Assembly (NCBI RefSeq): GCF_026151205.1
Contig: NC_087083.1
Span: 14,258,944 to 14,322,943, forward strand
From: Bolinopsis microptera
Taxonomy: Eukaryota > Ctenophora > Tentaculata > Lobata > Bolinopsidae
Length of the DNA: 64,000 nt
Direction: 5' to 3'
The position numbers and the translations under genes are program-made. The notes below the pieces were generated by a model. It ran no database searches and had not been told where the DNA came from. It was given only the letters and a program-made list of their open reading frames with translations. Of the stretch, positions 30,942 through 64,000 are shown piece after piece (the first letter of the stretch is position 1; each line of letters opens with the position of its first letter).

Positions 30942-32464
30942 TAATGAGAAGAATGAGATGAGTTATAAACAACATATTATCTGGGCAGAAAGAATGAGAT
31001 GAGTTATAAACAACATATTATCTGGGCAGGAAGAATGAGATGAGTTATAAACAACATATTATCTGGGCAGGAAGAATGAGATGAGTTATAAACAACATAT
31101 TATCTGGGCAGGAAGAATGAGATGAGTTATAAATAACATATTATCTGGGCAGGAAGAATGAGATGAGTTATAAACAACGTATTATTTGGGCAGGAAGAAT
31201 GAGATGAGTTATAAATACCATATTATCTGGGCAGGAAGAATGAGATGAGTTATAAATAACATATTATCTGGGCAGGAAGAATGAGATGAGTTATAAACAA
31301 CATATTATCTGGGAAGGAAGAATGAGATGAGTTATAAACAACATATTATCTGGGCAGGAAGAATGAGATGAGTTATAAATAACATATTATCTGGGCAGGA
31401 AGAATGAGATGAGTTATAAATAACATATTATCTGGGCAGGAAGAATGATATGAGTTATAAATAACGTATTATCTGGGCAGGAAGAATGAGATGAGTTATA
31501 AATACCATATTATCTGGGCAGGAAGAATGAGATGAGTTATAAATAACTTATTATCTGGGCAGGAAGAATGAGATGAGTTATAAATAACGTATTATCTGGG
31601 CAGGAAGAATGAGATGAGTTATAAATACCATATTATCTGGGCAGGAAGAATGAGATGAGTTATAAATAACGTATTATCTGGGCAGGAAGAATGAGATGAG
31701 TTATAAATAACGTATTATCTGGGTAGGAAGAATGAGATGAGTTATAAATAACATATTATCTGGGCAGGAAGAATGAGATGAGTTATAAATAACATATTAT
31801 CTGGGCAGGAAGAATGAGATGAGTTATAAATAACGTATTATCTGGGCAGGAAGAATGAGATGAGTTATAAATACCATATTATCTGGGCAGGAAGAATGAG
31901 ATGAGTTATAAATAACTTATTATCTGGGCAGGAAGAATGAGATGAGTTATAAATAACGTATTATCTGGGCAGGAAGAATGAGATGAGTTATAAATACCAT
32001 ATTATCTGGGCAGGAAGAATGAGATGAGTTATAAATAACGTATTATCTGGGCAGGAAGAATGAGATGAGTTATAAATAACGTATTATCTGGGCAGGAAGA
32101 ATGAGATGAGTTATAAATAACGTATTATCTGGGCAGGAAGAATGAGATGAGTTATAAATAACGTATTATCTGGGTAGGAAGAATGAGATGAGTTATAAAT
32201 AACATATTATCTGGGCAGGAAGAATGAGATGAGTTATAAATAACATATTATCTGGGCAGGAAGAATGAGATGAGTTATAAATAACGTATTATCTGGGTAG
32301 GAAGAATGAGATGAGTTATGAATAACATATTATCTGGGCAGGAAGAATGAGATGAGTTATAAATAACATATTATCTGGGCAGGAAGAATGAGATGAGTTA
32401 TAAATAACATATTATCTGGGCAGGAAGAATGAGATGAGTTATAAATAACGTATTATCTGGGCAG
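30942..32464. repeat. 41-bp minisatellite abutting a PARP1 acceptor, about 37 copies
   Basis: The unit reads GAAGAATGAGATGAGTTATA, then AATAACGTATTATCTGGGCAG. Each copy therefore ends in GGGCAG followed by GAAGAA, the same 12 bases as the acceptor and first six bases of the PARP1 exon at 32465. Copies differ mainly at ACATATT, ACGTATT, ACTTATT or ACCATATT, and blocks of these variants recur in the same order, showing multi-unit duplications. Confidence 0.9.
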
Positions 32465-33574
32465 GAAGAAGACTGTTCAACACTGCAGATCCGAGCAGTG
32501 TAGTTGAAACTGACGGAACAACCTCCGGACAGCCCCTCAAAGAGTACGTGTTCTGTTCTACAGTGGAGTACATAGGTAATCCATTATAGCTATCATTACA
32601 TAGGTAATCCATTATAACTATCATTACATAGGTAATCCATTATAGCTATCATTACATGCAATGCTCCTTCGGCGGTTCTCTATTTTGTGAGAAATTGTAC
32701 CATCCCCAACTTCTCCTATAGCCTAGTGAATCATGTTTAAATTTGATTATGTTTCAACTAGTTACTGGCAATATTGCTAAGTTGTTACCGGCCAGATGTA
32801 GACGGGGTGGAACACAACGTAAAGTTGGACCCCCCCCGGCCCCCCCCAATATTGCTAAGTTGTTACCGGCCAGATGTAGACGGGGTGGAACACAACGTGA
32901 AGTTGGACCCCCCCCGGCCCCCCCCAATATTGCTAAGTTGTTACCGGCCAGATGTAGACGGGGTGGAACACAACGTGAAGTTGGACCCCCCCCCCCCCCC
33001 CCCAATATTGCTAAGTTGTTACCCGCCAGATGTAGACGGGGTGGAGCACAACGTGAAGTCTGTGATTCAGAAGAACGGTGGTAAGGTGTATAAGAAGTTT
33101 ACTGCTAAATGTAACGCGCTGGTAACTGCGGACCTGGACACGGATAACAAGACTATTAAACGTGCTGCCGGTCTGGAGATCCCTATTGTAAACTGTGAGA
33201 AGTTAATTAAAGGTGAGAACGGGTGTTGAATTGTTTATAGAATTACACAAATGTGGGATCATGTTTACCTGACTATCAAACCACATTTTATGAGATGTTA
33301 TTTTGCGCTGTATAGTCGGTATATTATTACTGAGTTTTAACATGCTTTTCCAGGCCTGTTATCTTGCTCCATTTCTGACATATCAACCCTGTGCTACTCT
33401 GGGTACGAAGGAGATGACTACGTTAAGAAGAGGAGATCAATAAGTGGTCTCAAGAGTGCTGCTAAGAGTGAACGTAATGAGGCAGATACAAGTGCTAAAC
33501 GGGCCAAAATAACTGTACAGAATGGAGCAGAGGTGTTCCACGAAACCGGTTTCAGTGGTAATAAGGACGTTCAG
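32465..33574 (+). CDS. PARP1: PARP1 exons 1-3 of this window: BRCT domain
   Basis: Exon 32465-32575 encodes [17 protein letters not shown] then [14 protein letters not shown], the first BRCT strand. Exon 33030-33212 continues [20 protein letters not shown] with the conserved Gly-Gly. Exon 33354-33574 completes the domain and runs into a lysine-rich linker ([20 protein letters not shown]), the place of the automodification region. Phases match (1 then 1, leaving in 0). The domain mediates protein contacts in repair complexes. Confidence 0.8.
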
Positions 33575-61157: not shown

Positions 61158-64000
61158 ATGGCAGGGTCTGCTTTAAGACGGTTAATGACGGAGTACAGGG
61201 AGCTGTTCCACAATGCGCCTCACGGTGTGGTAGCTGGACCTGCTGCAGAGGACAACTTCTTCGAGTGGGATGTTCTCATCCAGGTTAGCTGTTAGTATGA
61301 TGACGTCATATAATCACTTGGCTACGTCACGTGATAGTTTGATGACGTCACGTTTTAGTGTTATGGAAGGAATAACCTCCCTTTTTATGGTTGTTTCAAA
61401 GCCCTCAAGTTGATTTAAACTGACGCCCCACAGGGACCGGAGGGCTCGCCGTACGAGTTTGGAGTATTTCCAGCTAGACTCAGCTTCCCCACTGATTACC
61501 CCCTCAGCCCGCCAAAAATGAGGTAAACAATCTTATTGCTCCTTACTCAGACTTACTCAGATCATTTTATCTGGACTTCTGTTAATTTAATTTCTTGACT
61601 AGCTGCCAACTCTGATATCTTCCTCCATGACGTCCAATTGTCCGGCAGGTTCTCGGTGCCACTATTCCACCCTAACGTGTACAATTGTCCGGCAGGTTCT
61701 CAGTGCCACTATTCCACCCTAACGTGTACAATTGTCCGGCAGGTTCTCGGTGCCACTATTCCACCCTAACGTGTACAATTGTCCGGCAGGTTCTCAGTGC
61801 CACTATTCCACCCTAACGTGTACAATTGTCCGGCAGGTTCTCAGTGCCACTATTCCACCCTAACGTGTACAATTGTCCGGCAGGTTCTCAGTGCCACTAT
61901 TCCACCCTAACGTGTACAATTGTCCGGCAGGTTCTCAGTGCCACTATTCCACCCTAACGTGTACAATTGTCCGGCAGGTTCTCAGTGCCACTATTCCACC
62001 CTAACGTGTACAATTGTCCGGCAGGTTCTCAGTGCCACTATTCCACCCTAACCTGTACAATTGTCCGGCAGGTTCTCAGTGCCACTATTCCACCCTAACC
62101 TGTACAATTGTCCGGCAGGTTCTCAGTGCCACTATTCCACCCTAACGTGTACAATTGTCCGGCAGGTTCTCAGTGCCACTATTCCACCCTAACGTGTACT
62201 ATTGTTCGGCAGGTTCTCAGTGCCACTATTCCACCCTAACGTGTACAATTGTCCGGCAGGTTCTCAGTGCCACTATTCCACCCTAACGTGTACAATTGTC
62301 CGGCAGGTTCTCAGTGCCACTATTCCACCCTAACGTGTACTATTGTTCGGCAGGTTCTCAGTGCCACTATTCCACCCTAACGTGTACAATTGTCCGGCAG
62401 GTTCTCAGTGCCACTATTCCACCCTAACGTGTACAATTGTCCGGCAGGTTCTCAGTGCCACTATTCCACCCTAACGTGTACAATTGTCCGGCAGGTTCTC
62501 AGTGCCACTATTCCACCCTAACGTGTACAATTGTCCGGCAGGTTCTCAGTGCCACTATTCCACCCTAACGTGTACAATTGTCCGGCAGGTTCTCAGTGCC
62601 ACTATTCCACCCTAACGTGTACAATTGTCCGGCAGGTTCTCAGTGCCACTATTCCACCCTAACGTGTACTATTGTCCGGCAGGTTCTCAGTGCCACTATT
62701 CCACCCTAACGTGTACAATTGTCCGGCAGGTTCTCAGTGCCACTATTCCACCCTAACGTGTACAATTGTCCGGCAGGTTCTCAGTGCCACTATTCCACCC
62801 TAACGTGTACAATTGTCCGGCAGGTTCTCAGTGCCACTATTCCACCCTAACGTGTACAATTGTCCGGCAGGTTCTCAGTGCCACTATTCCACCCTAACGT
62901 GTACAATTGTCCGGCAGGTTCTCAGTGCCACTATTCCACCCTAACGTGTACAATTGTCCGGCAGGTTCTCAGTGCCACTATTCCACCCTAACGTGTACAA
63001 TTGTCCGGCAGGTTCTCAGTGCCACTATTCCACCCTAACGTGTACAATTGTCCGGCAGGTTCTCAGTGCCACTATTCCACCCTAACGTGTACAATTGTCC
63101 GGCAGGTTCTCAGTGCCACTATTCCACCCTAACGTGTACAATTGTCCGGCAGGTTCTCAGTGCCACTATTCCACCCTAACGTGTACAATTGTCCGGCAGG
63201 TTCTCAGTGCCACTATTCCACCCTAACGTGTACAATTGTCCGGCAGGTTCTCAGTGCCACTATTCCACCCTAACGTGTACAATTGTCCGGCAGGTTCTCA
63301 GTGCCACTATTCCACCCTAACGTGTACAATTGTCCGGCAGGTTCTCAGTGCCACTATTCCACCCTAACGTGTACAATTGTCCGGCAGGTTCTCAGTGCCA
63401 CTATTCCACCCTAACGTGTACAATTGTCCGGCAGGTTCTCAGTGCCACTATTCCACCCTAACGTGTACAATTGTCCGGCAGGTTCTCAGTGCCACTATTC
63501 CACCCTAACGTGTACAATTGTCCGGCAGGTTCTCAGTGCCACTATTCCACCCTAACGTGTACACTTGTCCGGCAGGTTCTCAGTGCCACTATTCCACCCT
63601 AACGTGTACAATTGTCCGGCAGGTTCTCAGTGCCACTATTCCACCCTAACGTGTACAATTGTCCGGCAGGTTCTCGGTGCCACTATTCCACCCTAACGTG
63701 TACAATTGTCCGGCAGGTTCTCAGTGCCACTATTCCACCCTAACGTGTACAATTGTCCGGCAGGTTCTCAGTGCCACTATTCCACCCTAACGTGTACAAT
63801 TGTCCGGCAGGTTCTCAGTGCCACTATTCCACCCTAACGTGTACAATTGTCCGGCAGGTTCTCAGTGCCACTATTCCACCCTAACGTGTACAATTGTCCG
63901 GCAGGTTCTCAGTGCCACTATTCCACCCTAACGTGTACAATTGTCCGGCAGGTTCTCAGTGCCACTATTCCACCCTAACGTGTACAATTGTCCGGCAGGT
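61158..64000 (+). CDS. UBE2G2: Ubiquitin-conjugating enzyme E2 G2, 5' part (runs off the window)
   Basis: Exon 1 (61158-61283) encodes [20 protein letters not shown] then [14 protein letters not shown]. Exon 2 (61434-61522) encodes [20 protein letters not shown] then [10 protein letters not shown]. Exon 3 should begin [12 protein letters not shown], copies of which start at 61649, but no copy in the window continues into the catalytic-cysteine region (family: HPNIYPDGRVCISILH). The true exon 3 therefore lies past the last repeat, beyond 64000. UBE2G2 is the E2 that builds Lys48 chains with gp78 and Hrd1 in ER-associated degradation. The start is fixed by the conserved MAG-A-L-LM sequence. Confidence 0.92.
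61628..64000. repeat. 47-bp junction-spanning minisatellite at a UBE2G2 acceptor, about 50 copies
   Basis: The unit reads GTTCTCAGTGCCACTATTCC, ACCCTAACGTGTAC and then AATTGTCCGGCAG. The first 34 bases are the start of exon 3 (codons for [11 protein letters not shown]) and the last 13 are its acceptor. Copies start at 61649 and repeat with hardly any change to the window end. Because 47 is not a multiple of three, read-through soon meets TAA, so the array is not a coding expansion. It continues past 64000. Confidence 0.97.

Follow-up and report, generated by a model that had tools for sequence, protein, structure and literature searches.

Coding exons of the ctenophore Bolinopsis microptera were found to be overlapped at their edges by minisatellites that begin inside the exon and continue into the intron, here called edge arrays. 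The analysis was centred on a stretch of 64,000 nucleotides, referred to as the window (NC_087083.1 positions 14,258,944-14,322,943, the contig being C12 in our numbering). Edge arrays occurred at 16 of the 88 junctions of six genes modelled by homology, on both donor and acceptor sides, and in three more genes outside this set, one of them on another chromosome. In this sample they accounted for 46% of intron length, and copied exon for approximately 27%, so that introns of the genes examined have grown in part from coding sequence. The arrays are probably minisatellites of the type known in amphioxus as 'mirages'; an exon edge bounded by direct repeats would have been duplicated, tolerated and then amplified, and the outermost junction would be the one that is spliced. 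An earlier sequence-only reading of the window had listed several arrays of this kind and proposed that duplication, favoured at AG|GT junctions, lengthens introns while one junction stays intact. That interpretation was partly supported. The arrays it named exist, as determined using Tandem Repeats Finder (TRF), and the observation proved real and stronger than first reported; repeated edge duplication does lengthen existing introns and leaves one outer junction intact.

Gene models and array calling

Arrays were called using TRF, and the counted set was limited to those with a period of at least 20 and a TRF score of at least 100. The six genes (PARP1, TRIP13, TXNL1, UBE2G2, an RMDN-type and an ABCC-type gene) contain 44 introns. 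Exons of all but PARP1 were located by tblastn with human protein probes, and these models were finished either by choosing splice sites of consistent phase or by eye. Much of the evidence, the array of approximately 232 units included, comes from DNA unseen by the sequence-only reading; the RMDN-type and ABCC-type genes are both situated there, downstream of the window. PARP1 exons were read by eye, and the model covers the 15 coding exons by which the junctions were fixed.

The count of 16 junctions excludes the PARP1 exon 1 acceptor, as the upstream exon was not modelled, and three genes that were each found through their own arrays, namely a receptor gene, a SNARE-like gene and a gene on another chromosome, C7. 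A 51-bp duplication in ABCC (1.8 copies, seen by eye and absent from the TRF rows), the uncertain end exons of TRIP13 and, for three arrays called in two parts, the second part were also left out. Thirteen random 10-kb stretches of the genome contained few coding segments and yielded zero modelled junctions.

Edge arrays in the PARP1 gene

The PARP1-type gene (32465..48944, + strand) has 15 coding exons, which join into one open frame. The model protein (query 39-637) aligned to PARP1 in PDB entry 9mi8 with an E-value of 1.8e-171, and alignment to human PARP1 revealed no inserted copies at the array-bearing junctions. Arrays containing exon bases were present at 9 of 29 junctions, all on the + strand. 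At the exon 1 acceptor, which was placed without an upstream exon, a 41-bp unit is repeated 37 times (30948..32470; acceptor before 32465). The sequence-only reading had given this array 5-6 exon bases; it contains six, GAAGAA, which are the bounding direct repeat described below. The exon 1 donor carries three copies of a 28-bp unit (32569..32657; donor after 32575; 7 exon bases), and the exon 2 acceptor 3.7 copies of a 78-bp unit (32769..33059; acceptor before 33036; 24 exon bases). A 50-bp unit is repeated 36 times at the exon 6 donor (34567..36407; donor after 34595; 29 exon bases).

Exon 9 is flanked on both sides, by 2.9 copies of a 22-bp unit at the acceptor (37561..37623; acceptor before 37612; 12 exon bases) and by 82 copies of a 54-bp unit at the donor (37699..42125; donor after 37748; 50 exon bases). 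The 37-bp array at the exon 12 donor (46600..47841; donor after 46608; 9 exon bases) was called in two TRF pieces of 23.1 and 10.5 units. At exon 14, duplications of 2.1 copies were found at the acceptor (54 bp; 48248..48363; acceptor before 48318; 46 exon bases), with TAACCCTA at each end, and at the donor (42 bp; 48451..48538; donor after 48465; 15 exon bases). A PARP1 intron also hosts a nested intronless sulfotransferase gene at window positions 44612-45781 on the minus strand (PF03567, E 5.9e-25).

Two preserved states from before duplication

A second copy of window positions 8273-33059, first met as an exact match of 47 bases at C12:15.0447 Mb, was located on the same contig 0.75 Mb away (C12:15040120-15063905, approximately 25 kb). 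Identity to the window was mostly 91-96% in unique parts. One end of the match falls within the 42-bp array of the receptor gene, and the other within the 78-bp array beside a 100-N gap. Array copy number differs between the two loci, whether these are alleles or segmental duplicates: the 41-bp unit occurs 37 times in the window and once in the second copy, the 28-bp unit three times and once, and the 78-bp array, which has 3.7 units in the window, fills 4.2 kb at the other locus.

The two single-copy segments reveal the state that preceded duplication. The 41-bp segment is flanked by the direct repeat GAAGAA, one copy lying in the intron and the other forming the exon's first six bases. The exon portion of the 41-bp array, six bases long, is thus this bounding repeat itself. 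The 28-bp segment is flanked by TACAT, at the exon end and again 28 bp deeper in the intron. In both cases the single-copy state already has identical splice sites, indicating that the intron predates the duplication, and no new intron was created. These two empty sites supply the origin step that was left unclear in the amphioxus work.

The segment ends were not AGGT at either site. The exon share of the unit was spread evenly, from 0.15 to 0.93 (18 arrays, Kolmogorov-Smirnov p 0.78), a pattern that argues against the junction as the starting point of duplication. A two-copy duplication of 58 bp spans the UBE2G2 stop codon (65635-65752 in window numbering), where there is no splice site, and shows that the same outcome arises at a coding edge lacking one. 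On these three grounds, initiation at AG|GT, as the sequence-only reading had it, was not borne out.

Window positions 24011-28764 (4.7 kb) are missing from the second copy and are probably a retroelement. One open reading frame (ORF) in this segment matches 2OG-Fe(II) oxygenase and GDSL-lipase domains and contains a perfect 66-bp duplication; another weakly matches Exo_endo_phos, below Pfam's cut-off.

Proposed mechanism

We propose that a segment of 20-80 bp over the edge of a coding exon would first undergo tandem duplication, flanked by a pair of short direct repeats, with slippage or template switching as the probable copying step. Because the outermost copy still holds the whole exon and its splice site, such a duplication would merely lengthen the intron and be tolerated by selection. 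The array would then gain and lose copies, reaching tens to more than 200 units. Splicing would use the outermost junction, that is, the first donor or the last acceptor, and the inner copies would leave with the intron.

Several points weigh against this scheme. The empty sites number two only. Array length beyond whole units was 1-8 bp in 8 of 17 arrays and unreadable in the other 9, so that outside the two empty sites the evidence for direct repeats is modest. As for the second copy, it may represent either an allele that was not purged from the assembly or a segmental duplication. That exon-internal duplications would usually be purged is an assumption, and it is reading frame and homology that suggest a positional preference for the outer junction. 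Finally, the excess of arrays at exon edges is greater than a model of duplication plus selection alone predicts.

Frequency of arrays at exon edges

This excess was measured against a selection-aware null, in which each array was collapsed to one unit and placed randomly over array-free introns and their edges. The rationale is that an edge duplication keeps one intact junction and an intron-internal one is neutral, while an exon-internal one is usually lost. For all six genes, 16 of 26 arrays were edge arrays, with 2.56 expected (P 6.5e-11). The corresponding figures were 8 of 11 for PARP1 (1.65 expected) and 7 of 11 for ABCC and RMDN together (0.56 expected, P 1.5e-7). UBE2G2, TRIP13 and TXNL1 together showed no edge excess under this null (1 of 4, 1.11 expected). 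When only introns of up to 700 bp array-free length were considered, 14 of 18 arrays were edge arrays (4.51 expected), including 5 of 5 in ABCC and RMDN (0.90 expected); for introns of up to 350 bp, the values were 10 of 14 and 4.27 (P 1.5e-3). As PARP1 was picked by the sequence-only reading for its arrays, the downstream genes ABCC and RMDN weigh more. Both adjoin the window, and the final 10 kb was taken in the knowledge that ABCC carried arrays.

Shuffling of exon boundaries, the check that the sequence-only reading had proposed, gave no excess on this sample. A plain shuffle of junctions along the genes placed a mean of 38.1 under an array, compared with 13 of 80 observed, and 2000 of 2000 shuffles reached or exceeded the observed value. 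This is because roughly half of the span is taken up by arrays, and these cannot interrupt exons. No working junction can lie within an array, and the plain shuffle is unsuitable as a test in this sample. The claim that arrays lie at exon edges beyond chance thus holds under the selection-aware null, including for two genes outside the window, and fails under the plain shuffle. Random placement with selection does not fully explain the edge excess in this sample.

A plausible, if tentative, explanation is that coding exons and their rims are generally prone to duplication, that only events at the rim survive, and that splice sites are passengers. It would accommodate the even exon share, the duplication over the UBE2G2 stop codon and the finding that genes beyond the window show an excess too. 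That stop-codon case is, however, a single one, and no obvious sequence cause of such proneness was apparent. GC content was considered as the cause of the edge excess and rejected, the mean being 0.39 for edge units and 0.35 for internal ones (13 and 9 arrays).

It is almost as plausible, though on balance doubtful, that chance and selection suffice. Random duplications would then be lost where exon-internal, short introns would make edge hits frequent, and the excess would reflect the choice of genes. The smaller excess in introns of up to 350 bp, the three window genes without excess, and the way in which PARP1 and the last 10 kb were chosen are all in keeping with this. The excess in ABCC and RMDN, which the sequence-only reading had not seen, is not, either overall or in introns of up to 700 bp.

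A preference of duplications for beginning at the splice junction itself is very improbable. It would predict edge arrays above random placement, as observed over all six genes and in ABCC and RMDN, but the exon share does not cluster near 0 or 1, the breakpoints at the two empty sites are GAAGAA and TACAT, one duplication crosses a stop codon, and UBE2G2, TRIP13 and TXNL1 show no excess.

Inner copies and splice choice

Inner copies mostly retain their splice signals. GT or AG was kept in 740 of 755 full-length copies from 13 arrays, each array's real copy included. In the 41-bp array of ABCC, GT was kept in all 220 full-length matched copies, and CAG|GTAAGT in 217 of them. Two arrays had lost the dinucleotide in some of their copies, 4 of 26 in one and 11 of 36 in the other. 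Rare variants occupied 24 of 6257 cells in the splice core and 83 of 24,952 in the rest of the unit (P 0.55). At the dinucleotide, the count was 0 of 1510 cells compared with the same 83 of 24,952 outside the core, a difference (P 0.015) between copies that are not independent. Diversity of core and rest showed no trend when the 10 arrays of 10 or more copies were compared (Wilcoxon p 0.49). With a small reserve, the variation among inner copies is read as drift.

Selection for weaker inner sites was rejected as a general explanation, since the commonest splice core among the copies departs from that of the real site in only 1 of 17 arrays. This is the 50-bp array at PARP1 exon 6 (window 34595-36407), the sole one in which inner donors are uniformly altered; its real donor is GTGAGT, and its 35 inner copies are GTTAGT, GTTAAT or GTTTGT. 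If the first inner site were used, a stop or a frame shift would result in 6 of 8 PARP1 arrays examined. For the 78- and 54-bp acceptor arrays of PARP1, inner acceptor use would add in-frame residues. Of the 19 arrays known before the last three were found, 7 had a unit length divisible by three, the proportion expected by chance; nothing thus points to filtering for harmless use of inner sites. The arrays offer natural tests of splice-site choice, with one true site standing beside dozens to hundreds of near-identical ones within a single pre-mRNA.

Retention of the inner copies for a use, for instance as rows of U1 binding sites, is scarcely credible: the preserved dinucleotides, the 0 of 1510 rare variants and the uniform ABCC donors fit it, but the whole splice core is as variable as the rest, two arrays have lost the dinucleotide, copies are not independent, and acceptor arrays are common too.

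A broader proposal would have introns of this lineage lengthen chiefly through edge duplication, which a factor linked to transcription or splicing would seed near exons more often than chance, with a positional splice rule that ignores up to approximately 230 consecutive consensus-like donors. Taken as a whole, this is rather unlikely.

Relation to known systems

The sequence-only reading held that intron growth of this kind was not a standard description. That view has to be corrected, as amphioxus 'mirages' are already described as tandem repeats over exon-intron boundaries, with examples in Adh3, the globin genes BflGb6 and BflGb9, TnC and PGBD5 (PMC3087553, PMC3902484). Many mirage units are described as carrying AG/GT signals, and mirages as varying in copy number between haplotypes, leaving regular mRNA splicing undisturbed and, in Adh3, showing somatic instability; the BflGb6 mirage has 3-6 units, and the mechanism is called unclear by the authors (PMC3087553, PMC3902484). 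The Bolinopsis units likewise span donor and acceptor boundaries and mostly keep AG/GT. They differ in belonging to another lineage, in reaching up to approximately 232 units, in affecting 9 of 29 junctions of one gene, and in that pre-duplication sites with direct repeats were found. The Bolinopsis arrays are a new, larger, denser and extreme occurrence of an already named class. The presence of this class outside lancelets, at such scale, suggests that it depends on a genome's freedom for short tandem duplication and is not a peculiarity of one lineage.

Intron gain by tandem duplication of an AGGT-containing segment (the Rogers model, with potato RdRp and fission yeast as cases; PMC4974935, PMC3443670) resembles the present system in that a tandem duplication carries splice signals and leaves the coding sequence unchanged. 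In Bolinopsis, however, an existing intron is extended at one end, and the segment ends are not AGGT. Ordinary intronic minisatellites share with edge arrays their unit size, high identity between copies and changes in copy number, whereas the unit of an edge array holds coding sequence and a splice site and has one end in an exon at a functional junction. In the Hormiphora genome paper, repeats called by TRF amount to 14 Mb (13%), and the number of nested intronic genes is given as 2357. No ctenophore report of exon-edge minisatellites was present in the literature searched, a weak absence given that subscription papers lay mostly outside its coverage.

Arrays in other genes

In UBE2G2 (+ strand), 74 copies of a 47-bp unit form an acceptor array at 61635..65113, running beyond the window end at 64000 (acceptor before 65080; 34 exon bases). 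The 34-bp array of TRIP13 (21 copies, 50853..51572, + strand), reported by the sequence-only reading as a 38-bp array sharing exon bases, has a TRF period of 34 (69) bp, and its first base lies 15 bp into the intron; it is intron-internal and not an edge array. A TRIP13 intron also contains, at window positions 52861-53008, two telomere-like tracts in head-to-head orientation, (GGTTAG)16 and (TAACCC)9.

A gene that we take to encode an adhesion-receptor-like protein, its HormR/GAIN identity being judged by eye, carries a donor array of 37 copies of a 42-bp unit (6812..8362, - strand; approximately 17 exon bases). Between window positions 9635 and 22270 on the minus strand, units of approximately 260 bp are repeated many times in this gene, each comprising a whole cysteine-rich exon and an intron. 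These repeats are the whole-exon counterpart of edge arrays.

The remaining arrays lie outside the window. The largest found, a donor array of 41 bp with approximately 232 units over 9.5 kb, is in ABCC, together with donor arrays of 20 bp (59 copies) and 63 bp (20 copies, with 18 more units past an apparent retroelement insertion) and acceptor arrays of 42 bp (80 copies), 35 bp (3 copies) and 34 bp (12 copies). The RMDN-type gene has an acceptor array of 29 bp repeated 26 times, and the SNARE-like gene, whose name is a guess, a donor array of 43 bp repeated 39 times. At C7:5.807-5.811 Mb, a locus that came up only through the likeness of its array to one in the window, donor arrays of 39 bp (25 copies) and 46 bp (at least 3.8 copies) adjoin exons defined from open frames and not by homology. 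Telomere-like repeats of the CCCTTA type occur in an ABCC intron immediately past a donor, at approximately 92650-92855 in window numbering.

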